A DNA stretch of 64,000 nt from Anaerolineae bacterium (lineage in GTDB: Bacteria; Chloroflexota; Anaerolineae; Promineifilales; Promineifilaceae), in contig JAHDWK010000003.1 of the NCBI GenBank assembly GCA_023382655.1, forward strand, positions 62,001 to 126,000, given 5' to 3'. The position numbers were made by a program, and so were the translations under genes. Below the pieces are notes generated by a model. The model made no database searches. It saw only the letters and a list, made by a program, of their open reading frames with translations, and had not been told where the DNA came from. Positions within the stretch are counted from its first letter, which is position 1. The number at the start of each line of letters is the position of its first letter. Below, in pieces: positions 23,401-60,069 of the stretch.

Positions 23401-23468
23401 GATGGAGATTGAGAGGTTGAGAGATTGAGAGGTTGAGAGATTGGCTTCGCGCCAATCTCCTAATCTCC
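23401..23468. repeat. Inverted 8-base repeat array between GH1 and GT8 genes
   Basis: TTGAGAGA/TTGAGAGG units alternate about five times, then after a short loop the complementary TAATCTCC-like units follow and enter the last codons of the GH1 gene. Confidence 0.85.
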
Positions 23469-26820: not shown

Positions 26821-29800
26821 ATGAATTTTCTCAAATCGTACCGGCTTGATTTTCTGATTATTTGTGGCTTTTTTGTGCTACCCCTGCTGCTATTTTGGGA
26901 TGTGACGGTGGGAGGCCAGACGATGTTGCCGGTGGATAATTTGTGGCAGTGGGCGCCGTGGGCGGCGAACACGGCCATAACCACCCCACCACAAAACCCC
27001 CTCATCACTGACCTGATTATCCAAAACTACGCCTGGAAGCAGTTCATCCGCGAAAATATCAGCACGCCTACCCAACTGTTGTGGAATCCCTATCTATTTG
27101 GCGGTGTGCCCTTTCTGGCGGCCGGGCAGCATGGCGCGTATTACCCGTTTAGCCTGCTGTTCCTCATCTTGCCGCTGAGTAAGGCGTATGGCTGGTATGC
27201 CGTCAGCCAGATATGGCTGGCGGGGGTGCTGATGTATGTATACGGCCGTACCGTTGGGATGCGGCGCAGTTCGGCGGCGTTGGCCGGGCTGGTTTACCAG
27301 GGCGGCGGGTATCTGGTTGTCAGCGCGGTTGTTTTCCCGATGATCAGCGGGGCCGTCGTATGGCTGCCGCTGCTGCTGGCCTGTATTGACAAAGTGATCA
27401 GCGGCTCTATCCGTCGCGCCCGCTCAACCTGGCTGTGGCTCATGCTCGGCGCGGCGGCGCTGGGCACACAAATCCCGGCGGGGCATATTGAGTTTACCAT
27501 TTACACACTGCTGGTCATGGCGGTGTATGCACTCTGGCAAGTAGTGGCTGGTGGTTGGTGGCTAGTAGCTGGTGGAACCGATTACCGATTACGGATTACC
27601 GATTACGGGTTACGGCCGTTGCTTTATCTGACCGGCATGGTGTTGTTAGGTCTCATGTTGGGGGCCATCCAACTCATTCCACTTTATGAACTGGGGCAGG
27701 CCAACTTCCGCGAGGCGGCGTCCAGTCTGGCCGAGGTGCGTGGGTATGCCTTTCCCATGCGGCAGGCGGTGACGCTGGCGCTGCCCAACTTTTTTGGCAA
27801 TCCGGCCCATCAGGAAGTGGTGGACGTGTTCAGCAGGCAGACGATCCCCATCACCCAAAATTATTACGGCCAACCCATTTCTACAACGGAATGGAGCACA
27901 AAGAATTATGTGGAAGGGGGCATTTACCTGGGTATCTTGCCGTTGTTCCTGGCAATTTTGGGGATTTACGGCGGGTTGCGGAAAGTAGTAAGCAGTAAGC
28001 AGTTAGCAGTGAGGGGTCGCCGCGGGTTGACCAGTTTTTATCTGTTGTTAGCTTTTTTTTCGCTGACGTTTATCTTTGGCACGCCGTTGTATGCGTTGTT
28101 GTATTATGGGCTGCCGTTTGTGAATCAGTTGCACACGCCGTTTCGTTGGGTGTTTCCGTTGTCGCTGGCGGTGGCGGTGCTGGCCGGATTCGGCGCAGAT
28201 TATCTGGCGGCGACGCGCAAGTGGCAGACGATTGAAGTGTGGAAAACATACCGCCAATCCTTCGACAAGGCTCAGAACAAGTCTCCGGTCGCTAATCTCC
28301 AATCTCAAAACGTTTTTGCCAGTGACAGCAGTGTGGTCTGGTGGCTACGGCCGTTTGTCCTTTGGGGCACACCGTCCATTATCACCGGGCTGGCGGGGGT
28401 GGCGTTTTGGGCGGGCACGGCCGTGTTAATCGGCCTATTTATTTCCAAAATACTCTATGCACAAATTGCGCCGTTGGTGGAGCGTACGTTTCTGGGGCTG
28501 GCGCTGGCGGCCTATGCGTTCCCCGATGCCCAAACCTTTTACAGCTATGAATACCGGCAGGTTTTTCTGTTCGGGTTGATGCTGGTGGGAACGGGGGCGA
28601 CCCTGCGCGTCAGCCGCTGCCCCATTTTTGCGGGACGATGGGGTGGACGATGGCCGTTGTGGTTATTCATGGCTGCCGGGCTGATTGTGCTGGACATCTG
28701 GGCGGCCAACCGGGGCTTTCACGCGGCCAACGACCCGGCGCTGCTGGTCCACAAGCCAGAACTGGTGGAATGGCTGGAAGCACAACCCGGTCTATGGCGG
28801 CTGACCAGCTTTGCCCCCCATGGCGACAAACCGTTTAACGCGAATTCCGGCTGGCTGTTTGATCTGCCCGATGTGCGTGGCTACGACTCGATTATCCCCA
28901 AACAGTACACCAACTATATGAGCGCCATTGAACCGCAGAACGAACTGCCGTTCAACCGGGTGCAACCTATCGTCAACTGGCAGTCGCTCAATTCTCCGCT
29001 GTTGGATGTATTGGGGGTGAAGTATGTGATCACGGCGGAGACAATCGAACTGCCCAAGTACCACCTTGCCTGGCAAGGCGAGGGACTGAACGTCTATGAG
29101 AATCTGGGCGTGGCTCCCCGCGCCTACACACTGCCACAAAAACAAACGGCCGTTGTCCCCGACCCCCTCGCCGCCCTGACTACGCAATACGACCCACGCC
29201 AATTCGTCGTCATCGCCGAGAACAACACCGGATTACCGATTACCAATTACCGATTACCGATTACCAATTACCAACCCGCCGACATCATCGCCAACAGCAA
29301 CATTGAGGTGACTGTCCAAACGGCCGTGACCAAACCCTCCTGGCTCATCCTCAATGACAGCTACTTTCCTGGCTGGAAAGCGTTTGTCAAACAGGTGGGG
29401 GCGGGTGAGGATGCCGAGCAGCAAGTAGACATAACGCTGGTGAACGGCAATTTTCGCGGCGTCCGGCTGGAGCCCGGGGAATGGGAGGTGCGCTTCCGGT
29501 ACAGCCCGCTCAGTTTCCAGCTAGGCGGGCTGGCGAGTGCGATGGCAGTGGTGATCTTGATGTTTGGCACGGCCGTGTGGGGTTGGCGCATCTTTTATAA
29601 TCCCAGCGGCGACCTCTCCAAAACGCACAGCATCGCCAAAAACAGCCTGGCCCCCATGGCCCTGAACCTGTTTAACAAGTTCATAGATTTTGTCTTTGCT
29701 ATGTTTTATCTGCGGGCACTGGGGCCGGCGGGGGCCGGCAGCTTCCAAACCGCCATCGTCACCGCCGGGATATTTGACATTGTGGCCAACTACGGCCTGG

Positions 29801-38505: not shown

Positions 38506-40527
38506 ATGCGTAGCTTCGTTACACACAAACTCCTGCTCGCCCTGATCTTACTGGTGGCCTTCGCGCTGCGTATTGTGGGCGTGGGGGGCCAGTCGCCGCC
38601 CGGCGTGGCCCATGATGAGGTGGCTCATTGGCTCATTGCCCGTGACATTCTGGCAGGCAACCATGCCGTTTACTTCACGGCCGCTTACGGCCATGAAGCG
38701 GGGTACCATTACCTGGAAGCTATTTTCCTCCTGTTACTCAGTGATAATTTGTTGGCGCTGCGGCTGCTGGCGGCGTTTTGTGGGCTGCTCGGTGTGGCCG
38801 TGACCTATGCGCTGGCCAGGCGGTTGTTTGGAGAGACGGTGGCCTTGTTGGCAGCAGGATTGTTGGCGGTGTTGTTTTGGCCGGTGTTTTACGGCCGTCT
38901 GGCCCTGCGCGCCATCTCTTTACCGGTAGTCGCCGGGTTATCTGCCATTTTCTGGTGGCAGGCATGGCAAAGCGACAGGATGACAAGGTGGCAAGGTGAC
39001 AAGGGGCAGACATCCCAGCAATTCACCTTGTCACCCCTTCACCTCTTCACCGTGTCAGGTCTTTTCGCCGGGCTAAGTCTGTATACCTATCTGGCAGCGC
39101 GGGCGGTACCGATATTTTTTTTGTTGTTCATCTTGTATCTGGCTTTGGTGCATCGGCAGGAGCTGAAGGTGCGGTGGCGGGGTGTGGGGGCGTTCACGGC
39201 CGTATTCCTGCTCACCGCCTTCCCCCTCTTTTACTATCTGCAAACCCACCCTGGTGCGGAATTTCGCGTGGCCGAAGTCAGCCAACCTCTCACCGATTTG
39301 CTGGCAGGCAATCCGCTGCCGGTGCTGCAAAACGGGCTGAAGCTGGCCGGTATGTTTGGCGTAGTGGGCGACCCCTTGTGGCGGGAAGGGGTGCCTGGCG
39401 CGCCTGTGTTTGAGCCGGTGCTAGCCTTGCTTTTTTATGGGGGAGTGTTCCTGAGTCTGTGGCGGTGGCGCGACGGCCGTTACGCCTTCATTTTGCTCTG
39501 GCTACTGGTCAGTTTACTCCCCAGTCTGGTCACCATTAACGCTCCCAGTCACATCCGCAGTATCAATGCTTTGGTCGTTATGTCAATCTTCCCGGCGCTA
39601 CTTATTCACAATTTGGGTGAGTTATCCACAGATTTCCCCCGGTTATCCACAAAAGGGGTAAAACTCGGTTTGACAATCCTGGCCTTCACGTTCTTTTTAC
39701 TCTATGCCGGTCGCACCCTCTATTTGACGTTTCAGGTATGGCCGACCGGCGGGGATATACCCTTTGCCTGGCAGACAGCATTTGCTGAAGTAGCGGCTAT
39801 TTTAGATGAATCAGACGGCACGGCCGTGGCCCTCGCCGGTTGGTCGCCAGACACCATGGACAGTCCCACCATGACGCTCCTGCGCCAAAACGACGCCCCC
39901 CCCATCAGCCATTTCAATCCGCAAGAAGGGACGCTGATCATCCCGCCAACTGGGCAAATCATACGGCCGTCTACCCTCCCCCTCGATCCCTATTGGGAAA
40001 CCCAACTCGCCGCCTGGGGCGTGTTAACCACCACCCACCAACACACCACCCACTACACCCTCCCCACCGCCCCCCTCCCCGCACCCCAATTCCCCGCCAA
40101 CACCTCATTTGGCAACGAACTTGTTTTTCTGGGGCACGATTTTACTTGTCACCCTGTCACCCTGTCACCGTCCGATGGCTGCCATCGGCGTCACCTTGTC
40201 ACCTACTGGCGCGTCACGGCCGTGCCCGCCCACGCCCGCCGCCTGTTCATCCACTTTTTGGACGAAAACGGACAGCAAATCGGTGATGCTTACGCCTTTG
40301 ACACGGCCGATCCCCAATCCCTCTGGTTCCCCCACTGGCAGCCCGGCGACCTCATCCTGCAAAAACAGGAAATCCCCATCCCCCTGACTGACGTCGCCCA
40401 CATCCGCCTGGGCTGGTTTGACCCCTATTCCTGCGATCCCGGCCCCTGCCAAAATCTGCTCACCCCGGCCGGCGCCCCCTTTCTCGTCCTACCGCTTGAT
40501 CTTTCTCTGATTAACGCTTCTCCATAG
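38506..40527 (+). CDS. GT39-type membrane glycosyltransferase with 8-base repeat insertions
   Basis: A 673-residue integral membrane glycosyltransferase. The catalytic-type acidic loop is PPGVAHDEVAHW at residues 31-42; about ten helices follow, and the C-terminal region (about 430-673) is soluble and extracytoplasmic. Residues 155-184 in the loop before SGLFAGLSLYTYLAAR are encoded by an 8-base repeat array, and a second array lies near residues 548-568. A paralogue at 51308-53299 has a different, 7-base array at the same loop. Probably uses a polyprenyl-phosphate sugar to glycosylate an external acceptor. No strong ribosome binding site precedes the ATG. Confidence 0.87.
   Translation: MRSFVTHKLLLALILLVAFALRIVGVGGQSPPGVAHDEVAHWLIARDILAGNHAVYFTAAYGHEAGYHYLEAIFLLLLSDNLLALRLLAAFCGLLGVAVTYALARRLFGETVALLAAGLLAVLFWPVFYGRLALRAISLPVVAGLSAIFWWQAWQSDRMTRWQGDKGQTSQQFTLSPLHLFTVSGLFAGLSLYTYLAARAVPIFFLLFILYLALVHRQELKVRWRGVGAFTAVFLLTAFPLFYYLQTHPGAEFRVAEVSQPLTDLLAGNPLPVLQNGLKLAGMFGVVGDPLWREGVPGAPVFEPVLALLFYGGVFLSLWRWRDGRYAFILLWLLVSLLPSLVTINAPSHIRSINALVVMSIFPALLIHNLGELSTDFPRLSTKGVKLGLTILAFTFFLLYAGRTLYLTFQVWPTGGDIPFAWQTAFAEVAAILDESDGTAVALAGWSPDTMDSPTMTLLRQNDAPPISHFNPQEGTLIIPPTGQIIRPSTLPLDPYWETQLAAWGVLTTTHQHTTHYTLPTAPLPAPQFPANTSFGNELVFLGHDFTCHPVTLSPSDGCHRRHLVTYWRVTAVPAHARRLFIHFLDENGQQIGDAYAFDTADPQSLWFPHWQPGDLILQKQEIPIPLTDVAHIRLGWFDPYSCDPGPCQNLLTPAGAPFLVLPLDLSLINASP
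38968..39057 (+). repeat. In-frame 8-base array in GT39 loop
   Basis: GGTGGCAA/GGTGACAA units followed by inverted CACCTTGT, CACCCCTT, CACCTCTT, CACCGTGT units. It codes for residues 155-184. Confidence 0.8.
40148..40208 (+). repeat. Second in-frame 8-base array in the same GT39 gene
   Basis: CTGTCACC units repeated three times, then a palindromic spacer (CCGATGGCTGCCATCGG) and two more TTGTCACC units. Confidence 0.75.
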
Positions 40528-42726: not shown

Positions 42727-45252
42727 ATGCTTGTACCACTATCCTGGCTCAAAGATTTTGTGACCATAGACCGCCCGGTGGCCGAGGTTGACCGCATCCT
42801 CACTAATGCCGGGTTGGAAGTGAAAACCATTGAATTCATCGGCATCCCCGGCGCAGACCTGGTGTGGGATCGTGACCTTATTGTCCTGGGGCACATCCTC
42901 AAGGTGGAGCAGCACCCCAATGCGGACAAACTGGTGCTGGCCACGGTGGAGTATGGCGCTGACGCGCCCGAAGTCGTCGTCACCGGCGCGCCCAACCTGT
43001 TTGAATTTGTGGGGCAGGGTGATATTAGCAGCCGGGGGTTGTATTCGCCGCTGGCGCTGGAAGGGGCGGAACTGTATGATGGGCACAAAGACGGCCGTAG
43101 CAAAATGAAATTGAAGGGACGGCCGTTGCGCGGCATCCACAATCGCTGCATGGTCTGTTCCGAAAAAGAGCTGGGCATCAGCGACGAACACGAAGGCATC
43201 ATCCTCATCACCAAAGATGAATGGTCGCCCGATTATGTGGCCGGGACACCCTTGCAAGATGTTCTCGGCGATGCTGTGCTGGAAATTGACATCATCCCCA
43301 ACATCGCCCGTTGCGCCTCCATGCTCGGCGTCGCCCGCGAATACGCCGCCCTTACCAACCAGCCGCTGCGCCTGCCTGACTACCACGTCATCATGGACGG
43401 CCCGCCGGTCGAGGGTAAGGTACTCATCACCACCGACGAGCCGGAACTCAATCCCCGCTTCGTGGGCATGGTCATCAACAACGTGCAGCAAATTGACAGT
43501 CCCTACTGGATGCAATACCGTCTGCGGTTGGCCGGGATGCGCCCCATCAACGTCGTCGTGGACATCAGCAACTACGTTATGCTGGAAATGGGCCAGCCCA
43601 ACCATACCTTCGACTACGACTTCCTGCGCCAGCGGGCTAACGAATACGCACCTGATGGCCCCATTCACATCCATACCCGCCTGCCCCGACCCGGCGAAAC
43701 GCTGACCACGCTGGACGAAAAAGTCCACAAGTTGCCCCCCCACGCCATCCTGGTCACAGATCCACTCAGCAATCTCAGTCTGGGTGGCATCATGGGCGGG
43801 CTGGACAGCGAAATCAAGCCGGAGACGCAAAACGTGCTGCTGGAAGCGGCCGCCTGGAACTTCATCAACATCCGTCGCACCAGCACCGCCTTAGGTATTC
43901 ACAGCGACGCTGCCTTTCGTTTCAGCCGGGGGGTGCATCCCAGCCAGGCACTGTTGGGCGCACAGCGCGCCGCCGAATTGATGCGGCGGCTGGCGGGTGG
44001 CACGGTGGCGCAGGGCCTTGTAGATTACTATCCCAACCCACCGCAGCCAACGGCCGTGACACTGAAATATGAGTATACCCGGCGACTGAGCGGGCTGGAT
44101 TTGTCTGGGGAAGCGATGGCCGACCTGCTGCGTCGCCTGGAATTTGCGGTGACGGTGGAGGGTGATCATCTCGTGGCGACTGTACCTGACCATCGCCTGG
44201 ACATTGAAGGCCCTCACGATTTGGTAGAGGAAATTTGCCGCGTTTACGGCTATGACAATATCCCCAATACCATCCTCTCTGACCCCCTGCCGCCGCAGCG
44301 GGGTAACCCCAAACTGGAACAGGAGGAGCGCATCAAGGATGGGCTGGTGCAGGCCGGTTTGCAGGAACTGATTACCTTTCGCCTGACCTCGCCAGCGTAT
44401 GAGGCAAAGCTACTGCCAGGGAGCGAGGGGGATGCACGGCCATATGTCAGCCTCACCAACCCCAACTCCGCGGAACGGGCCGTCATGCGCCACTCGCTGC
44501 TGGCCTCCGTGCTGGAAATTGCCGCCCACAACAGCCGCTACCAGGAGCGCATCGCCATTTTCGAGATTGGCCCCATCTTCATCGAAGACGAGGAGGAAAT
44601 CCTACCCACCGAACAGACGCGGCTATCGCTGGCGCTCACCGGGCAGCGTGGCGTCCCTGGTTGGCAGGGCGATAATACCGGGCAGTACGACTTCTTCGAT
44701 CTAAAGGGCATCCTGGAAACGCTGTTCGGCGAGCTACATGTCCCCATCAGCTTCGAAGCAGCGCAGCACCCCTCCTACCGGCCTGGGCGCACGGCGCGGC
44801 TGCTGTTGAACGGGCAGCAAATCGGTGTGATGGGTGAATTGCACCCGCTGGTAGCCGAGCGGCTCGACCTGCGCCTGGAACGGGACCAGCCCGTGCTGGC
44901 AGCCGATATTGATCTGGACGCTCTCATCCCGCACATCCCGCCCTACTATCCTTACGCCCCCATCTCACCCTACCCGCCGATTGAGGAGGATTTGGCGGTG
45001 GTGGTGGATGTGGGAGTCACGGCCGTGACTGTCGAAGAAACCATCCGCCAGGCTGGCGGCAACCTGCTCAAAGATGTGCGCCTCTTTGACGTGTACGAAG
45101 GGGAACAAATCGGCAAAGGCAAACGCAGCCTAGCCTACCATCTCACCTTCCAGGCTGCCGACAAAACGCTCAACGACAAAGCCGTCGCCAAACAGCGCCA
45201 GCGCATCATCGCCACGTTAGCGCAGCGGCTCAACGCTAAAATCCGGGAATGA
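42727..45252 (+). CDS. pheT: Phenylalanyl-tRNA synthetase beta subunit
   Basis: An 841-residue PheT with the full domain set: EMAP-type tRNA-binding domain (about 42-170, IVLGHILKVEQHPNADKL), B3/B4 editing domain (about 220-400), B5 (about 410-480, TAVTLKYEYTRRLSG onward), catalytic-like core (about 490-720) and FDX-ACB anticodon domain at the end (YPPIEEDLAVVVDVGV, LFDVYEGEQIGKGKRSLA). The ATG at 42727 gives the standard MLVPLSWLKDFV start with GGAG upstream; an ATG at 42688 would translate the stem-loop. Forms the (alpha-beta)2 enzyme with pheS. Confidence 0.96.
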   Translation: MLVPLSWLKDFVTIDRPVAEVDRILTNAGLEVKTIEFIGIPGADLVWDRDLIVLGHILKVEQHPNADKLVLATVEYGADAPEVVVTGAPNLFEFVGQGDISSRGLYSPLALEGAELYDGHKDGRSKMKLKGRPLRGIHNRCMVCSEKELGISDEHEGIILITKDEWSPDYVAGTPLQDVLGDAVLEIDIIPNIARCASMLGVAREYAALTNQPLRLPDYHVIMDGPPVEGKVLITTDEPELNPRFVGMVINNVQQIDSPYWMQYRLRLAGMRPINVVVDISNYVMLEMGQPNHTFDYDFLRQRANEYAPDGPIHIHTRLPRPGETLTTLDEKVHKLPPHAILVTDPLSNLSLGGIMGGLDSEIKPETQNVLLEAAAWNFINIRRTSTALGIHSDAAFRFSRGVHPSQALLGAQRAAELMRRLAGGTVAQGLVDYYPNPPQPTAVTLKYEYTRRLSGLDLSGEAMADLLRRLEFAVTVEGDHLVATVPDHRLDIEGPHDLVEEICRVYGYDNIPNTILSDPLPPQRGNPKLEQEERIKDGLVQAGLQELITFRLTSPAYEAKLLPGSEGDARPYVSLTNPNSAERAVMRHSLLASVLEIAAHNSRYQERIAIFEIGPIFIEDEEEILPTEQTRLSLALTGQRGVPGWQGDNTGQYDFFDLKGILETLFGELHVPISFEAAQHPSYRPGRTARLLLNGQQIGVMGELHPLVAERLDLRLERDQPVLAADIDLDALIPHIPPYYPYAPISPYPPIEEDLAVVVDVGVTAVTVEETIRQAGGNLLKDVRLFDVYEGEQIGKGKRSLAYHLTFQAADKTLNDKAVAKQRQRIIATLAQRLNAKIRE

Positions 45253-45326
45253 CAGGGTGGCAAGGTGAAAGGGTGACAAGGTGAATTTTGTCGCCCCTTC
45301 ACCCAGTCACCTTGTCACCTTGTCAA
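45252..45326. repeat. Inverted 8-base array between pheT and the acyltransferase
   Basis: GGTGGCAA, GGTGAAAG, GGTGACAA, GGTGAATT units, then complementary CACCTTGT units ending right at the ATG of the next gene. It fills the whole spacer. Confidence 0.85.
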
Positions 45327-46074: not shown

Positions 46075-46968
46075 TTACATGACGAATTCGCCGATGCGGG
46101 CGATGGCCTGGCGGCTTTCGGGGATCAGGGCGGCCAGGGCGTGCCAGACGTGTACCATATCCGGCCACACTTCCAGGGTCACGTCTACGCCGTCGGCGCG
46201 GGCACGGGCCAACAGGCGGGTGGCGTCGTCCAGCAAGATTTCGTTCTCGCCCACCTGAATGAGCAGGCGCGGCAGCCCGGCCAACGAGGCGTAGAGCGGG
46301 GAGATGAGCGGATGGGTCAGGTCACGGCCGTCCGCATACCACCGGGCATACCGCGCCAACAGTTCCGGCGTCAGCAGTACATCCACCTGCCGCTTGCCGG
46401 TCATGGAATCGCCGGTTCCGGCCAGATCAGTCCAGGGGGAGATGCACACGGCCGTGCCCGGCAATCGCTCCCCCGCATCCCGTAGCGCCACCAACGCCGC
46501 CAGCGCCAACCCACCACCGGCCGAGTCCCCCATAATGGTCAGATTTTCCGGTTTATATCCGGCCGCCAGCAGCCAGCGATACGCCGCCACCGCGTCGTCA
46601 ACCGCTGCCGGGAAAGGGTGTTCTGGGGCCAGGCGATAGTCGGGCAGCAGCACCCGACTTTGCACCGCGCGGGCCGCATACCCGCCCAAAAAGCGATGGG
46701 AGCGGGCCGAACCCAGGCAATACGCACCGCCGTGCAGGTAGAGGATGGCACGGCCGTCCGCAACCTGAGCAGGAATCACCCATTCCGCGGCTAAAGAACC
46801 AATGCTCACCGATTCAGCCCGGCAATCGGCGGGCAGCCTGGCCCGCGCCCCCAGTTTCTCCATGCTGCGCCGGGTTTCGGCTATATCCTCATGCAGCCGC
46901 CCGGCCGTTTGCTTTTGCAACCGCCCCGCCAACATCGCCCACAGCATCCGAAATTGCCAGCTTGCCAT
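46075..46968 (-). CDS. Alpha/beta hydrolase fold-3 (HSL-type esterase/lipase)
   Basis: A 297-residue hormone-sensitive-lipase-family esterase. The oxyanion motif HGGAY lies near residues 76-80, the nucleophile Ser in LTIMGDSAGGGLAL near 145, the acid residue in the QVGENEILLDDA segment near 238-249 and the catalytic His in DMVHVWHAL near 270. No signal peptide, so it is cytoplasmic. The family hydrolyses short-chain esters and similar molecules; natural substrate unknown. Divergent from the GT4 gene with a 7-base repeat array between. Confidence 0.92.
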   Translation of the reverse strand: MASWQFRMLWAMLAGRLQKQTAGRLHEDIAETRRSMEKLGARARLPADCRAESVSIGSLAAEWVIPAQVADGRAILYLHGGAYCLGSARSHRFLGGYAARAVQSRVLLPDYRLAPEHPFPAAVDDAVAAYRWLLAAGYKPENLTIMGDSAGGGLALAALVALRDAGERLPGTAVCISPWTDLAGTGDSMTGKRQVDVLLTPELLARYARWYADGRDLTHPLISPLYASLAGLPRLLIQVGENEILLDDATRLLARARADGVDVTLEVWPDMVHVWHALAALIPESRQAIARIGEFVM

Positions 46969-47011
46969 CTATTGTTTTCCCTTGAAGTCAATCAAAAATC
47001 AATCACCGCTC

Positions 47012-47076
47012 ACGCATCACCGATTACCGATTACGGATTACCGATTACCGATTACCGATTACCGATTACGGGTTAC
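47012..47076. repeat. 7-base repeat array between HSL and GT4 genes
   Basis: About eight CCGATTA units with single CGGATTA and CGGGTTA variants, in the 151-base divergent region. Confidence 0.88.
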
Positions 47077-47119
47077 AGAATTGTCGCCTATTTCCCCAGA
47101 TCGTGGTACACATCCGGTT

Positions 47120-48292
47120 GTGCGCGTGGCGATGATTGGGCCGTTTGGCCTGCACCCCAAACAGACGATGCGCAGCCGGGCGCTGCCGCTGGCCAAAGAA
47201 CTAACCCGACGCGGCCATCAGGTCTGCCTGTTCATGCCTCCCTGGCACACGCCGGCCGAGGCAGACAAAACGTGGCAGGAGGATGGCGTGACGCTGCGTT
47301 ATGTGCCCCTGGGCGGTGGTGTCCCCGGCATCACCTGGCGGCTGGTGCGCGAGGCGCTGGCCTGGCAGCCGGATGTGGTGCATGGTTTTAAGCCGAAGGC
47401 GTACAGCGGGCTGGCCTTGTGGTGGCTCTGGCAGTTTCACCGCCGCCGCCTGCGGCTGGTGTTGGATACGGATGATTGGGAGGGCTGGGGTGGCTGGAAT
47501 GAGCGCGAACCGTACACGGCCGTGCAAAAACATTTCTTCGCCTGGCAGGAACGGTGGGGTCTCACCCATTGCCACACCCTCACCGTCGCCAGCCGCGCCC
47601 TGCAAACCATCGCCCTGAGCCGGGGCGTGCCGCCGGAGCGGTTGGTGTATGTGCCCAATGGGCCGGGTATCAGTAATCGGTTATCGGTTATCGGTTATCG
47701 GTCAACTGATTACCGATTACCGATTACCGATTACCGTCCTACCCTCCTCCTCTACAGCCGTTTCTTTGAGTTTGAGGTCTCGCGGTTGGCGGCGGTTTTA
47801 CAGGGAGTGCATACGGCCGTGCCTCATTTGCGCATCCTATTGGTGGGGCAAAGCCTGTTTGACGCCGATGCTGCCCAATTTCAACAACTGCTGGCGGTAG
47901 GCGGGGTGTTGGAGGCGATTACAGATGCGGGTTGGGTAGAGCCGGACAGATTGCCGGAGGTGCTGGCACAGGCAGATGTGGGCATTTACCTGATGGATGA
48001 CACATTGCTGAACCGGACGAAGTGCCCGGTGAAACTGGGGGATATGCTGGCAGTGGGGCTGCCGGTGGTGGCGGAGGCGGTGGGACAGGTGGGGGAATAT
48101 GTGGTGCACGGCCGTACCGGTCTGCTACGGCCGTCTGGTGATGTGGCCGGTTTGGTGACCGACCTGGTCCACCTGCTGCAAAACCCGGCCGAGCGCCAAC
48201 AGTTGGCCGCCAATGCCAGCGCCCACATTCAGACCCATTTTTCCTGGGAAAAATTAGCCATCACGCTGGAAAGTGCTTACAGCACGTTGTAA
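47120..48292 (+). CDS. Glycosyltransferase family 4 with an in-frame 7-base repeat linker
   Basis: A 390-residue GT-B enzyme. The N-terminal domain shows VAMIGPFGLHPKQTM and DTDDWEGWGGW; after the hinge YVPNG the C-terminal domain has LLLYSRFFEFE, ILLVGQSLF, DAGWVEPDRLPEVLAQADVGIYLMDD and the donor-binding CPVKLGDMLAVGLPVVAEAVGQVGEYV. About 24 residues at the hinge (184-208) are encoded by the repeat array at 47672. The GTG at 47120 fits the usual MRVAMIGPFG start; ATG 47132 is an alternative, and starts upstream would cross the other array and overlap the HSL gene. Likely adds a hexose in surface polysaccharide synthesis. Confidence 0.88.
   Translation: MRVAMIGPFGLHPKQTMRSRALPLAKELTRRGHQVCLFMPPWHTPAEADKTWQEDGVTLRYVPLGGGVPGITWRLVREALAWQPDVVHGFKPKAYSGLALWWLWQFHRRRLRLVLDTDDWEGWGGWNEREPYTAVQKHFFAWQERWGLTHCHTLTVASRALQTIALSRGVPPERLVYVPNGPGISNRLSVIGYRSTDYRLPITDYRPTLLLYSRFFEFEVSRLAAVLQGVHTAVPHLRILLVGQSLFDADAAQFQQLLAVGGVLEAITDAGWVEPDRLPEVLAQADVGIYLMDDTLLNRTKCPVKLGDMLAVGLPVVAEAVGQVGEYVVHGRTGLLRPSGDVAGLVTDLVHLLQNPAERQQLAANASAHIQTHFSWEKLAITLESAYSTL
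47672..47740 (+). repeat. Inverted 7-base array inside the GT4 gene
   Basis: Four GGTTATC-type units and then four ATTACCG units face each other, so a hairpin could form. It codes for the interdomain hinge of the enzyme and keeps the frame. Confidence 0.87.
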
Positions 48293-49308: not shown

Positions 49309-50583
49309 TCACTCTTTTGGGGCGGTGGCGAGGGAAAAGTAGAGTGGTCTTTTAGTCCCATCGGGGCGCAGCAGGCTGTAGCCAGATTCGGAGAAGGCAG
49401 TCCCCAACAGGGGGCCGAAGTTGAGATTCCACAAAATCATTGGGCCGATCATGCCTTCGGTTTGTCCCCATTCAAAGGCACGCAAGGTGTATTCGGCTTG
49501 CTGCCATTCACCGACGTCGGCCATAAACGCCGCTTCGTCGGGAGGCGCGGAGGCGATGTTTTCAAAGCTGCCCCAGCCAAACTCTGTCACCCACAGGGGC
49601 AAAGTGGTCCCGTGTTCGGCCAGGAGGTGGCGGTAATCGTTCAAAGTGTCGGCGAAGAAGAAGCTGGGGTGGTTGTTGTGGCTGCGGGGGAGGGGGGAGG
49701 GGTGTACGGCCGTGCTATCCGGCGGATTACCATAGCCATACGGATGTACGCCAAGCGCATCTACCAGACCGGCCGCCCCGGCCTGGAGCATTTCCTGGAG
49801 AAAGAGGCGGTCATCTACGGCCGTGCCCCGATCATTGATGCCCGTCACGGCCGGCGCGCCGGCAATCAACACCGCGTCCGGGTCGGCCGCCCGCGCCCCT
49901 GTCGCCCCTGCCCGCAACAATTCTCCAAACGCCGCCCCGCCCATGGGGAAACCGTTCCATTCCCGCTGCAAATTCGGCTCATTCCATAATTCATAGGCCG
50001 CCACCCGCCCCCGGTAACGAGACGCCAGCGTGTGCATAAACTGTTCGTACAGGGCAAAGTCAGACGGTGGGCCATCCATCTCGGTAGTGGGGCGGCTCCA
50101 CTCCGGCGCTTTGCTCACACTCAGCAGCACATTCAAGCCCTGCGCGTTGGCCCGGTTGACAAAAGCATCCAATTCGGCAAAACGTTCAGGGTGCAGTTGG
50201 CCTGGTTCCGGTTCATACAACTTCCAGGAAACCTGCACCTTCACCCAGCCCACACCCAAAGCGGCCAGATGTACAAAAATCTCGTCCTGATCCCGCTCCA
50301 TCAAATGAATTTGCACACCCAACAGGTCACGGCGCAGCGGTGGGCCGGTGTAAGCGGGGAATGATGGTGTGGGGGTGGGCGTGGGCGATGGGGACATCGT
50401 GGGGTGAACGGGTGACACGGTGACACGGTGAAGGGGTGAGGGTGTCACCATATCATCTGGCGTGGCTGTCACCTTGTCACCTTGCCACCGTCCGATTGGT
50501 GAAATCGGCGTCACCGTGTCATTACGGCAGGCAGCCAACAGCAGACAGAGTAAGAGTAAAAGGAAGGGAAGGCTCACACGCAT
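49309..50583 (-). CDS. Secreted lipoprotein glycoside hydrolase (clan A TIM barrel)
   Basis: A 424-residue protein. A signal peptide with lipobox LLLAAC (Cys at about residue 19) is followed by a Thr/Pro/Ser-rich linker (about 25-75) largely written by an 8-base repeat array. The catalytic domain shows the acid/base Glu in YELWNEPNLQ near residue 200 and the nucleophile Glu in LWVTEFGWGS near 330, the clan GH-A pattern (GH5/GH39-like). It is probably a lipid-anchored extracellular glycosidase; the family number and substrate are not certain. Confidence 0.87.
   Translation of the reverse strand: MRVSLPFLLLLLCLLLAACRNDTVTPISPIGRWQGDKVTATPDDMVTPSPLHRVTVSPVHPTMSPSPTPTPTPSFPAYTGPPLRRDLLGVQIHLMERDQDEIFVHLAALGVGWVKVQVSWKLYEPEPGQLHPERFAELDAFVNRANAQGLNVLLSVSKAPEWSRPTTEMDGPPSDFALYEQFMHTLASRYRGRVAAYELWNEPNLQREWNGFPMGGAAFGELLRAGATGARAADPDAVLIAGAPAVTGINDRGTAVDDRLFLQEMLQAGAAGLVDALGVHPYGYGNPPDSTAVHPSPLPRSHNNHPSFFFADTLNDYRHLLAEHGTTLPLWVTEFGWGSFENIASAPPDEAAFMADVGEWQQAEYTLRAFEWGQTEGMIGPMILWNLNFGPLLGTAFSESGYSLLRPDGTKRPLYFSLATAPKE
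50405..50522 (-). repeat. In-frame 8-base arrays in the lipoprotein linker
   Basis: GGTGACAC-like units (50407-50450) and inverted TTGTCACC-like units (50468-50520) lie in the linker between the lipobox and the catalytic domain. Confidence 0.8.
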
Positions 50584-51307: not shown

Positions 51308-53299
51308 TCAAGGAGTGTGGACAACCAGAGGAGGCGCGTTGATTTTGTCATCCACAGGTTCATTGGCATCATTCCACACAGGCAGGCGCACGCCGGAAGC
51401 GCGGTCATATACGCCAATGATGGCCGGGTATTCACCCGGCGCAGCGTCGGCGGGAATGGGTAGGGCGTGGATTTGCAAGATCACATCGCCACGCTGCCAA
51501 CTCCAGGAGGGCGCTTCCAGGGAGTCACGTTGGGCAAAAGGACGGCCGTCTGCGCCCAACACCTGTGTAAACATGACCACATCGGTGGTAAAGGCGGGCG
51601 GCACAATTGGCCCCACCCGCGCCGGGTCTTGCACCTGCCAGATGGTTAGTAGTTCGGCCACCCCACCTGGTTCTACGGATTCGGCCAGCCAGATGACATG
51701 ACGCAGAGTGAGGGCGTCGTTCAGGTTCACGGCCGTGACCCAGTCCCCCATTTCCAATGCAGCCAACTCAACCAGCGTAAATGACGGGTCTAAATCATCT
51801 GGGCGCAGGGGGATGGTTTGCTGCGGCTGTGCTATCGCCGCAAACAGGGGATGCAGCGGTGTGGAGGCGGGAATAATCGCCAGTATCTCCTTTCCATCCG
51901 GCATCACGAGGGCATAACGTGCATCGGCCCAGCGGAAATCGGCGTCACCTGCCAACACCAGGGCAATGGAGGGATCATGCACCGGGCCGGGGTAAACGGT
52001 GGAGAGCAATACCGGCCCGTTTATCTCCTGGCCATCCAGATAAGCCAGCGCCTCCACCAGATTGCGCTGGTACGCGCCGCGCACCTCCGGCGACTGTCCC
52101 CAGCGGATGAAGTAATCGTTGATGGTGGTAGCGCCTACCCAGAGCAACCAGACGGTGAGGGCAACGGCCGTGACCCACCACCCCGTACGCGGCCAACGCG
52201 CCGCAGCCCAGCCCGCCACAGCCCAAAAGCCGATGGCCGGCAGTATAAACACGGCTGGCAGCGCCGCCAGATTGCGCGTGGTGTTGGCTGTGGCCCCGGT
52301 GATGAGTGAGGGCAGGATGCCCACGCCAAACCAGAGCAGCAGAAAGGCGGCCTGAGGCTGCCGCCAGCGCCACAGGCAAACAGCGACACCAACGAGAAAG
52401 AAGGCGGCCGTGACCGCCTCAAACACTGGCCGCCCCGGAAGGTTATACGCCAGAAATTGATCCCCCTGCCCCGGCCAGACAAAGGCCAACAGCGCCCCGG
52501 TCACATTACGCGCCAGCGGCAGCAGGTTCCCCTGCCGCAAATCGTTGAGCGGCCTGTCTAGCATATCCAGCCGCGTCAGGGCATAGGGGTAACGTTCCAG
52601 GTAAAGGAACATGGGCGTCACCAGCAACGCTGCCAGCAGCAGCCCCGCCAGCGTCGGCCGCCACATTCGCCAGAAATGGGGCCGATGCACCAACAGCAGA
52701 TATAGCAAAAACAGAGGAAACAGCAGCCAGGCCACCCGCGCCGCCAGATAAATATGCAGCGTCACCGCCACGCACACCCCAAACCCAATGACCAATGACC
52801 AATGACCAATGACCGATGACCGATGACCGATGACCGATGACCGATGATTGAACAGTTGCCAGAAAAACCAGACTGCCAACGTCATAAACAGGGGCAGCAG
52901 CCCGGCGCGGAGGGCTTCGCGGCTGGTAGCCAGGGGCCAAAAGGAGAGGGCGAGCAGCACGGCCGTGACCAATGCCACCCGTCTATCAAAAGCACGATTG
53001 GCCCAGGCATACACAGCGGCGATCACGGCCGTACCCGCCATCACATTCACCAGCCGCAGCGCCAGCAGCCCTTCGCCCAGCAGCGCCATGAACCCGGCGA
53101 CGGTGTAGCTGTAGAGCGGTTCGCTGCCGTAGTTGAGGGGAAAGTAGAAGAGCCAGATGCCGTTTAAGATGCCGATGGCTTCACGGCCGTGATTGGCTTC
53201 ATCGTGCGTCAGGCCGGGTGGCAGGTCGGTGAGCGCCGCCAGCCGCAGGCCAAACGCCAGCAGCAAAATGAGCAGAATGGGACCATATCGTTTCCACAT
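51308..53299 (-). CDS. GT39-type membrane glycosyltransferase with 7-base repeat insertion
   Basis: A 663-residue paralogue of the enzyme at 38506-40527. The acidic loop PPGLTHDEANHG is at residues 28-39; about ten helices follow and the C-terminal region (about 410-663) is soluble. Residues 151-172 (repeating SSVIGHR) are written by a 7-base array and occupy the same loop as the 8-base array in the paralogue. The ATG at 53299 gives the conserved start; an earlier one at 53356 is less likely. Likely donor is a polyprenyl-phosphate sugar. It lies 59 bases after the RlmL-like gene start region on the same strand. Confidence 0.87.
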   Translation of the reverse strand: MWKRYGPILLILLLAFGLRLAALTDLPPGLTHDEANHGREAIGILNGIWLFYFPLNYGSEPLYSYTVAGFMALLGEGLLALRLVNVMAGTAVIAAVYAWANRAFDRRVALVTAVLLALSFWPLATSREALRAGLLPLFMTLAVWFFWQLFNHRSSVIGHRSSVIGHWSLVIGFGVCVAVTLHIYLAARVAWLLFPLFLLYLLLVHRPHFWRMWRPTLAGLLLAALLVTPMFLYLERYPYALTRLDMLDRPLNDLRQGNLLPLARNVTGALLAFVWPGQGDQFLAYNLPGRPVFEAVTAAFFLVGVAVCLWRWRQPQAAFLLLWFGVGILPSLITGATANTTRNLAALPAVFILPAIGFWAVAGWAAARWPRTGWWVTAVALTVWLLWVGATTINDYFIRWGQSPEVRGAYQRNLVEALAYLDGQEINGPVLLSTVYPGPVHDPSIALVLAGDADFRWADARYALVMPDGKEILAIIPASTPLHPLFAAIAQPQQTIPLRPDDLDPSFTLVELAALEMGDWVTAVNLNDALTLRHVIWLAESVEPGGVAELLTIWQVQDPARVGPIVPPAFTTDVVMFTQVLGADGRPFAQRDSLEAPSWSWQRGDVILQIHALPIPADAAPGEYPAIIGVYDRASGVRLPVWNDANEPVDDKINAPPLVVHTP
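52784..52852 (-). repeat. In-frame 7-base array in the second GT39 gene
   Basis: About nine TGACCAA/TGACCGA units, read as a heptapeptide repeat in residues 151-172, in the loop equivalent to that at 38968-39057. Confidence 0.9.
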
Positions 53300-57702: not shown

Positions 57703-57846
57703 GGACGGCAGTGGTTGGAACCTACCCAGCTTGTTTTGTAGACCGAGGACGCGGTAGGGGCAGGCCTTGTGCCTGCCCTCTGAATGGCCGCCCTTACGTT
57801 GATCACCGGCAAGCCTGGGTTGGTGGTGTGCAATGGAGGACATGCC

Positions 57847-60069
57847 GTGCCGGGAACAACAGTGCTTGCCCAACTGGCTGACTTGATCAGCGACCATTTT
57901 AGCGAGCAGGAACTGCGTGATCTATGCCTGGAATTGGGTGTGAATTATGAACACCTGAGCGGGGATAACACGCGGGCTAAGTCGCGGGAATTGGTACAGT
58001 GGGCGCAACGGCATGGCACGCTGCCCGCATTGCTGGAACAGGTGAAAACGCACCGTCCCCACCTGGCAGAGCAGATTGGCCACCTGGCAGTGAACCTGCC
58101 CCAACCGCCAACACCCCCGCGCCTGCACCACATTCCCTACCACCGCAACCCGCTGTTTACGGGGCGGGAGGAGTGGTTGGCGGCACTGCACGCGCAGTTG
58201 GGGCAGCGGGGCACAGTGGCCGTGACCCAGGCGGTGGCCGGGCTGGGCGGCATGGGCAAGACGCAGCTCGCGCTGGAATACTGCTACCGCCATGTGGCCG
58301 AGTATGACCTGATCTATTGGCTGCGGGCGGATGAGGCGGCGACGCTGGCGGGGGAGATGGCCGAACTGGCCTACCGGCTGGGGGCGGCCCCGCGCCATGT
58401 GACCGACCAGACGGCGCTGCGGGCAGCGGCGCTGGATTGGCTGCACGGTACGGCGCGGCGCTGGCTGCTGGTCTTTGACAATGTGGATTTGCTGGAACCG
58501 GCCGACCTGCAACCTTATTTACCCCGGCTGGGCAATGGCGGCAGCCTGATTACGTCGCGGAACCCGCGTTGGGAAGGGCTGGCGCGGACGGTGCGGCTGA
58601 AAGAACTGCCGCCGGAGGAGGCGGTGGCCTTTTTGCGGCAGGCAAAACCGGATGCACCGGAAGCGGAAGCGGCCCACCTGGCCCATTTGCTCGGTTATTT
58701 GCCGCTGGCGCTGGAACATGCGCGGGCGTTTGTGGCGGCAACGGGCTGTACGCTGGCGGAGTATGCCCACTATTTGGAGACGGCGCGGCGGGAACTGTGG
58801 GCGGGGGTGGACGCGCCGGTGGCGTATGACCGGCGGACGATTACGACGACGTGGGAAGTGGCCTTTGCGCGGGCGCGGCAGGTGCAAGGAGCGGCGGCGC
58901 TGCTGAATTTGTGCTGTTTTTTAGACCCCGAAGCCATTCCCCTGGCGCTGCTGCGGCGGGCGGCGGAGACGCCAGGCTTTTTGGAAAAGCCTGGCCCCCT
59001 GGCGCTGGAGGCGGCATTGAGGGAACTGGGGCGGTATTCATTGGTGCAGCGGGAAGGGGAGGGGGTGCGGCTGCACCGGCTGGTGCAGATGGTGGCCCGC
59101 GACCAGATGCCGCCGGAAACAGCCCAAAACACGGTGGCGGCGGCCGTAGAACTGCTGGCGGCAGCCTGGCCGTATGACCAACAGGACATGAACACCTGGC
59201 CCGCCAGCGCCGACCTGCTGCCGCACCTGCTGGCGGCCGCGGCGGCGGGGGAACGGGCGGAGTCGATACCTCACCGGACAGGGTATTTATGGAATCAGGC
59301 CGGTTTTTATCTGCATCACCGCGCTGTTTATACTCAGGCGGGGGATTGTTACCGCCGCGCCCTGGCGATTGATGAAAAAGCACTTGGCCCCGACCATCCG
59401 ACCGTAGCCACTCGCCTCAACAATCTGGGGATGCTGCTGAAAGATGAGGGGGATTTGGCCGGGGCACGGCCGTACCTGGAACGCGCCCTGGCGATTGATG
59501 AAAAAGCACTTGGCCCTGACCATCCCGAAGTAGCGATTCGCCTTAACAATCTGGGGATGCTGCTGCAAGCGGAGGGGGATTTGACCGGGGCACGGCCGTA
59601 CCTGGAACGCGCCCTGGCGATTGATGAAAAAGCACTTGGCCCTGACCATCCCGAAGTAGCGATTCGCCTTAACAATCTGGGGATGCTGCTGCAAGCGGAG
59701 GGGGATTTGACCGGGGCACGGCCGTACCTGGAACGCGCTCTGGCGATTTGGGAAAAAGCGCTCGGTTCTGACCACCCCCAAGTAGCTATAGGCAGCAGCA
59801 ATCTGGGGACACTGATGCAAGATGAGGGGGATCTGGCCGGGGCACGGCCGTACCTGGAACGCGCCCTGGCAATTGATGAAAGAGCTTATGGCCCTGACCA
59901 TCCCGAAGTGGCGACAGACCTCAACAATCTGGGGATACTGATGCAAGATGAGGGGGATTTGGCCGGGGCACGTGTGCATCTGGAACGTGCCCTGGCGATT
60001 TGTGAGGCGAGGCTGGGGCCAGAACACCCCCACACGCGCACGACACGCCATAATCTGGCGAATTTATAG
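57847..60069 (+). CDS. STAND NTPase: effector-associated domain, NB-ARC, kinesin-light-chain-type TPRs
   Basis: A 740-residue NLR-like protein. Residues about 1-75 are a helical effector-associated-type adaptor (QELRDLCLELGVNYEHLSG ... KSRELVQWAQRHG). The NB-ARC ATPase follows: GREEW near 106-110, P-loop GLGGMGKTQ 132-140, Walker B LLVFDNVD 207-214, TSR sensor 236-238, GYLPLAL 283-289, and a winged-helix end with LHRLVQ near 420. TPR repeats of 42 residues run from about 500 to the end. Such proteins oligomerise on ligand binding and are often conflict or anti-phage systems; no effector enzyme domain is fused here, so a partner is expected to bind the adaptor. GTG 57847 is six bases after GGAGGA; an ATG at 57784 is a longer alternative. 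Confidence 0.85.
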   Translation: MPGTTVLAQLADLISDHFSEQELRDLCLELGVNYEHLSGDNTRAKSRELVQWAQRHGTLPALLEQVKTHRPHLAEQIGHLAVNLPQPPTPPRLHHIPYHRNPLFTGREEWLAALHAQLGQRGTVAVTQAVAGLGGMGKTQLALEYCYRHVAEYDLIYWLRADEAATLAGEMAELAYRLGAAPRHVTDQTALRAAALDWLHGTARRWLLVFDNVDLLEPADLQPYLPRLGNGGSLITSRNPRWEGLARTVRLKELPPEEAVAFLRQAKPDAPEAEAAHLAHLLGYLPLALEHARAFVAATGCTLAEYAHYLETARRELWAGVDAPVAYDRRTITTTWEVAFARARQVQGAAALLNLCCFLDPEAIPLALLRRAAETPGFLEKPGPLALEAALRELGRYSLVQREGEGVRLHRLVQMVARDQMPPETAQNTVAAAVELLAAAWPYDQQDMNTWPASADLLPHLLAAAAAGERAESIPHRTGYLWNQAGFYLHHRAVYTQAGDCYRRALAIDEKALGPDHPTVATRLNNLGMLLKDEGDLAGARPYLERALAIDEKALGPDHPEVAIRLNNLGMLLQAEGDLTGARPYLERALAIDEKALGPDHPEVAIRLNNLGMLLQAEGDLTGARPYLERALAIWEKALGSDHPQVAIGSSNLGTLMQDEGDLAGARPYLERALAIDERAYGPDHPEVATDLNNLGILMQDEGDLAGARVHLERALAICEARLGPEHPHTRTTRHNLANL
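59356..60060 (+). repeat. 126-base near-identical TPR-coding repeats, six copies
   Basis: Units begin at 59356, 59482, 59608, 59734, 59860 and 59986. The second and third (59482-59607, 59608-59733) are identical by eye over 126 bases. Four copies contain ACGGCCGT. Confidence 0.9.

Follow-up and report, generated by a model that had tools for sequence, protein, structure and literature searches.

Two membrane-protein genes within one 64,000-nucleotide stretch of an Anaerolineae genome (the window, to which positions refer unless a contig is named) carry short repeat arrays of different unit in the same inter-helix loop. The locus therefore raises the question of whether this loop is unusually tolerant of inserted sequence or whether array insertion is targeted to a structure there, as the first-pass annotation framed it. 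We argue below that tolerance of the loop, combined with heavy production of arrays by the genome, probably explains its recurrent colonization.

Both proteins, P0001 and P0002, score above the gathering threshold of the PMT_2 family (PF13231; 35.8 and 28.3 bits against 26.1 bits) and are 37% identical across P0001 residues 12-497, i.e., most of the membrane part. They had been described as GT39 paralogues. Their paralogy stands at the level of PMT_2, but the strict GT39 assignment does not, since PF02366 (PMT) reaches only 19.8 bits in P0002 against a gathering score of 22.7 and leaves P0001 unmatched. The acidic H-D-E motif after TM1 (H36 D37 E38) is invariant in the alignment of P0001 orthologues, in keeping with PMT_2 membership. 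Each protein has an orthologue in all five congeners (74-88% identity for P0001 and 70-88% for P0002), and the orthologue sets, with orthology taken as best match, extend to about 20 further genera. The source genome is a draft assembly of 7.7 Mb, 97.5% complete and 5.5% contaminated. An AF2 model of P0001, weak overall (mean pLDDT 59.6, built from 9 sequences), gives residues 158-174 a pLDDT below 50 between helices 132-161 and 177-194; a PDB sequence search with the 9-row profile returned no match at E values up to 1. General GT-C topology, with the H-D-E motif after TM1, and the positive residues in the short loops suggest that the TM4-TM5 loop faces the cytosol.

Array 1 (38968-39057, plus strand) codes for P0001 residues 155-184, and array 2 (52784-52852, minus strand) for P0002 residues 150-172. 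These positions and those of both genes agree with the first-pass annotation, which started array 2 at residue 151. Array 2 is a plain 7-base array, as had been claimed. A simple 8-base array is ruled out for array 1 by its inverted arms: it is a convergent octamer pair, (GGTGACAA)n ... (TTGTCACC)n, laid out as GACAGGATGACAAGGTGGCAAGGTGACAAGG, a spacer, and then TTCACCTTGTCACCCCTTCACCTCTTCACCGTGTCA, and the end of its right arm codes for the start of TM5 (FTVSG). Its RNA folds at -41.4 kcal/mol (z = -3.4), beating 200 of 200 shuffles. When as many as 2 mismatches are allowed, the 18-mer GGTGACAAGGTGACAAGG matches 154 times genome-wide, against 0 for the reversed pattern. Congeners either lack the second octamer array of the P0001 gene or carry a shorter version of it. 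Table 1 collects the features discussed.

Table 1. Positions in the window of the two PMT_2 genes, their arrays and the comparator arrays
Feature	Position	Strand	Remarks
P0001, 673-aa PMT_2 (GT-C) membrane protein	38506..40527	+	PF13231 E 1.2e-8
P0002, 663-aa PMT_2 (GT-C) membrane protein	51308..53299	-	PF13231 E 2.4e-6
Array 1 left arm, G-rich octamers (GGTGACAA-type, one unit GGTGGCAA)	38974..39004	+	Part of residues 155-184; sequence, 18-mer pattern matches
Array 1 right arm, C-rich octamers (TTGTCACC/CCTTCACC), convergent to left arm	39022..39057	+	Sequence, RNA hairpin
Array 2, heptamers CATCGGT / CATTGGT on coding strand, about nine units, one orientation	52784..52852	-	TRF score 99
Second octamer array of the P0001 gene (TGTCACCC x3, palindrome, GTCACCTTGTCACC)	40147..40205	+	Variable C-terminal domain
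Three heptamer array sites in one 1423-aa ORF (27544-27615, 27983-28010, 29231-29272)	27544..29272	+	Comparator
Convergent octamer pair filling a whole intergenic gap	45250..45325	+	Comparator; TGTTCAGG unit instead in genome G002
Convergent heptamer pair (CGGTTAT / GATTACC), interdomain loop of a GT4-like glycosyltransferase ORF	47664..47736	+	Comparator

The loop is indeed shared. In the joint alignment of both orthologue sets, the two arrays fall in a single gap-rich segment between the FWW/WFFW helix (TM4) and the LYTYLAAR/LHIYLAAR helix (TM5), and neither this alignment nor that of the paralogues places them at different topological positions. Ten PMT_2 paralogues from the same genome align over the TM4-TM5 loop; five carry 7- or 8-mer arrays there (P0001, P0002, and L003, L005 and L009, the last three being located at C27:50300, C27:47973 and C4:361381), and five have short array-free loops (L004, L006, L007, L008 and L011). 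This is an enrichment over the 48 of 725 ORFs with any internal array (Fisher p = 3e-4), although a post hoc one, as two of the five prompted the question. Among P0001 orthologues, the loop holds an array in 18 of 28 and none in the other 10, and about 14 unit families are represented: GGTGACAA, CCCCCTCA, GTGTCAA, GCAGAGGC, AAGGAGAC, GGGTGAAG, ACGCATT, TTACCCAA, CCCCATT, GGGGAGCA, AAGGCGGA and GTCTCTC are among the units found. On an orthologue tree built without the loop columns, array presence must have changed at least 6 times (well-supported branches force 4 of these changes), and the unit state 16 times or more. Array insertion in this loop is therefore both independent and recurrent, which bears out the earlier proposal of separate in-frame insertions into one place. 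Arrays are less frequent in P0002 orthologues (about 8 of 30); three congeners have CGGTNAN heptamers and two have GCAGAGTC octamers. Growth in situ from one ancestral array by point change fits poorly with the occurrence of GGTGACAA, GCAGAGGC and AAGGAGAC among relatives; it may account for closer pairs such as TCATCGG and TCGGTTA. As a separate observation, the loop of one orthologue (L048, genome G003) combines octamers with CCCTGAGTCTGACGAAGGG, which resembles another kind of dispersed palindromic repeat.

The genome supplies such arrays in large numbers. In the 864 kb surveyed (about 11% of the 7.7-Mb genome), TRF detected 222 arrays of heptamers and 81 of octamers, against 3 and 6, respectively, in a first-order Markov shuffled copy. 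Of these 303 arrays, 82 lie inside ORFs, 120 at ORF edges and 101 between ORFs, even though the ORFs, delimited with a simple caller, cover 92% of the sequence; arrays are thus depleted inside genes, as selection against coding insertions entails. Close pairs (less than 60 nt apart) run G-rich then C-rich in 50 of 65 cases, and their left arms share 6-mers with the reverse-complemented right arms at 0.48, a value that falls to 0.08 when partners are shuffled and to 0.008 when the arms are compared in direct orientation. By abundance, dispersal outside gene interiors and inverted pairing, these are convergent heptamer/octamer simple repeats of the Rehm-type SSR/STRR class. The octamer-pair unit itself is narrowly distributed, unlike the class: a phylum scan of 301 genomes found it only here and in 3 genomes of one distant genus.

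The array type is thus already known. Heptameric G-rich repeats (GGGAATC and GGGGA(C/T)T) were described in Xanthomonas and Nostoc by Rehm et al. 2015 (PMC4692102); convergent inverted GGGAATC pairs number 70-75 per Xanthomonas genome, and 83% occupy the same position in a related species (PMC4692102). The arrays here share with them 7-nt G-rich units, short and degenerate arrays, a dispersed and mainly intergenic distribution, convergent pairing, and recurrence at corresponding positions in relatives. They differ in that one genome combines a large number of unit families with two periods (7 and 8), the unit is often swapped between congeners, one protein loop has been colonized repeatedly, and G tracts in units such as GGTGACAA do not exceed GG. 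The same paper cites cyanobacterial short tandemly repeated repetitive (STRR) heptamers, three of them reported in Calothrix (PMC4692102). As far as that account describes them, they are likewise dispersed degenerate heptamer arrays of large genomes, though in a different phylum. Some of the units found here (GGGGAGCA, CCCCATT and GGTCATT) presumably resemble STRR heptamers in sequence.

Other known repeats are less close. Borg elements have a "conserved aaTR hotspot", where homologous proteins bear unrelated repeat units in the same gene region (PMC9879509); independent origin and fast evolution are further common points. Borg genic repeats are, however, A-rich, near-perfect and under strong selection, with perfect amino acid repeats, whereas those described here are degenerate, 7-8 nt long, G-rich/C-rich and paired, and so do not qualify as Borg-type. 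Rickettsia palindromic elements also lie in frame within many unrelated genes (reviewed in PMC10969869), but they measure about 150 bp and encode a conserved peptide; our arrays vary in insert length, unit and peptide and thus fall outside that class. The TAACTGA repeats of Beggiatoaceae are abundant, mainly intergenic 7-nt direct repeats (PMC4679880), yet they form one unit family located upstream of start codons and almost never inverted.

Further observations concern array sites and repeats outside the PMT_2 genes. At 45250-45325, the array opens with the stop codon TGA of the upstream gene and ends immediately before the ATG of the downstream gene. The orthologous stretch in one congener (L135; G004:C52, ~12.5-13.1 kb) has arms GAGCAGGTGA... 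/ ...CACCTGCTC flanking an insert of about 500 bp, whose ORF, judged by eye, reads like a four-helix-bundle (S23/Avd-like) protein. Opposite 50402-50489, genome G001 (L145-L146; G001:C49) has an 884-bp stretch with an apparent antitoxin/PIN-toxin pair at the array site, and similar small modules seem to occur in G002 at sites 21424 and 57508, again by eye. In a 761-aa ORF (57784-60069), a 126-bp unit of 42 codons is repeated five times in tandem at 59356-60000 (87% matches). With 1645 copies in 864 kb, the palindrome ACGGCCGT far exceeds the 19 that dinucleotide frequencies predict and recalls HIP1 of cyanobacteria; most of this excess resides in its inner words, as the maximal-order expectation is 1413.

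How tolerant, then, is the loop? Across the 10 P0001 orthologues without an array, the TM4-TM5 segment ranges from 21 to 41 residues (SD 5.55), while the other inter-helix segments between residues 71 and 427 have SDs of 0 to 1.8, most exactly 0; before residue 71 the alignment starts raggedly, which blurs the segments there. Even without arrays, no other inter-helix segment of the membrane domain varies as much in length, although old decayed arrays could themselves have caused that variability. The other array positions in the protein lie at residues ~511-519 and 547-576, in or beside variable stretches of the C-terminal domain. A GT4-like ORF (46802-48292, with homology from ~47117) provides a parallel: its array occupies the interdomain loop after VPNG, with two unit families among five genomes of the genus (GTGAGCA/ACCGCTC in three congeners) and others in three more distant genomes. 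Because the GT4-like loop shows the same recurrence and arrays occur in other variable segments, the pattern is not protein-specific. Of the two earlier alternatives, an unusually tolerant loop is thus supported by its length variability, by the other variable segments and by the GT4-like loop, while targeting of a structure, and of PMT_2 genes in particular, is not, as these other places behave alike. A reading-frame filter is also evident: length differences between congeners are multiples of 3 in 46 of 51 comparisons at genic array sites and in 10 of 33 at nongenic ones. Of 48 simple internal arrays, 39 have a unit that is free of stops on the coding strand, a proportion partly forced by the definition of an ORF.

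We therefore favor as the probable explanation a genome that would produce dispersed 7- and 8-nt-unit arrays at a very high rate, typically as convergent pairs in which a G-rich array would be followed, after a short spacer, by a C-rich reverse-complementary one. Arrays would arise at many places, selection would remove those that break genes, and the survivors would build up between genes and in those parts of proteins where additional residues are tolerated. The TM4-TM5 loop of PMT_2 would be such a segment, being unconserved, variable in length and presumably outside the catalytic periplasmic part. Since neither 7 nor 8 shares a factor with 3, tiling a unit of either length yields one cycle of 7 or 8 residues whichever frame is read, and a stop-free unit stays open in any phase; the only constraint left on such an array is a total length that is a multiple of 3. 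A tolerant loop and units open in any phase would together let many different arrays settle there independently. The arrays are probably neutral for the enzyme, and they are likely made and replaced by slippage and/or hairpin-templated copying.

The behavior of array sites across the genus qualifies this explanation. Orthologous stretches in congeners could be compared for 42 array sites: an array was present in 52 of 84 comparisons, whereas random control positions gave 3 of 150 within genes and 5 of 60 between them. The 52 array-bearing comparisons comprise 30 with the same unit, 20 with a different unit and 2 mixed, as classified by shared 7-mers and TRF calls, with some of the 64 sites being coding microrepeats rather than true arrays. 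Swaps include GAGATTGA versus CCCAATTA at 23405, GATTACC versus CCAATCTC at 29231, and TGACAAGG versus TGTTCAGG at 45250. Such persistence suggests a poor fit with tolerance alone, which predicts free alternation of empty and filled loops, and could mean a site memory (seeding or conversion) beyond tolerance.

The most serious rival, which we nonetheless consider rather unlikely, is that insertion or replacement is directed to the site, an existing array, a hairpin or a chance unit-like sequence at the helix start (such as TTCACCTTGTCAGG, coding for FTLSG, or GGTCATTGG, for VIG) seeding (micro)homologous copying from elsewhere in the genome. The 20 array-bearing comparisons with a different unit speak for it, as do mixed arrays at one site (e.g., GGGGAGATTG-CCCAATTACCCAATTACC) and the occurrence of FTLSG in array carriers at the place of FALAG/FLLAG in array-free orthologues. 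However, units as unlike as AAGGAGAC, GCAGAGGC and CCCCATT share the loop, which makes a common seed unneeded, and near-saturated array production over few tolerable sites could equally give persistence, the data fitting this and replacement alike. A tentative extension, to which we likewise give only a minor chance, holds that array positions are lasting sites whose unit family is exchanged wholesale by hairpin-directed copying, so that the site is inherited and the sequence is not. If true, the PMT_2 loop would be one of many cassette sites, happening to be intragenic.

It is improbable that the arrays are kept for a function, be it an mRNA hairpin or G-rich structure slowing translation between TM4 and TM5 or a useful flexible cytosolic linker. 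The stability of the array 1 fold and the rule of convergent pairing speak for such a function. Against it, the loop is free of arrays in 10 of the 28 orthologues and in 5 of the 10 paralogues, L077, L075 and others carry single-orientation arrays with no stem, and the encoded peptides are completely different. Still less credible are transposase-moved mobile elements (MITE, REP or RPE-like) with the inverted arms as ends, because, despite that inversion and the ORF between matching arms in one congener at 45250, element length is not fixed, arm sequence varies by site, one-orientation arrays are common and no common end sequence was seen among the arrays compared. Loop tolerance with abundant array supply thus remains our preferred reading.

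The P0001 gene also contains three DnaA-box-like 9-mers, TTATTCACA, TTATCCACA and TTATCCACA, at 39602, 39622 and 39643 (39602-39651; spacing of 20 and 21 nt). Boxes 2 and 3 are exactly TTATCCACA in 23 and 24 of 30 P0001 orthologues, a spelling of Leu-Ser-Thr that the codon usage of these genes predicts in 0.4% of cases. The spaced box pair occurs with zero mismatches once in the 7.7-Mb genome. The 5-Mb genome G028 has a single copy of the triplet, again within this gene. The dnaA gene is located elsewhere, with no exact boxes within 1.5 kb of it. The sequence is most naturally read as a candidate intragenic DnaA-binding site for titration or initiation; in Escherichia coli, DnaA boxes are concentrated near the origin as a titration device (PMC12371093). 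Outside the window, a degenerate DnaA-box pair (L200, G000:C3:167184-167213) coincides with a jump in GC skew from ~0 to +0.14 over the next 16 kb and marks a possible replication origin ~65 kb from the P0001 boxes. Genome G012 has eight TTATNCACA boxes within 2.2 kb at C1:117758.

To conclude, a lineage-specific insertion in a PMT_2 enzyme calls for a test before it is taken to be a functional adaptation. The TM4-TM5 loop amounts to a natural replicate experiment, in which one loop has been struck many times in relatives of graded distance and with known units. Two questions thereby become accessible to testing: by what route arrays of 7- and 8-nt units spread through bacterial genomes and change their unit, and how noncoding repeats turn into protein sequence while the protein stays intact.
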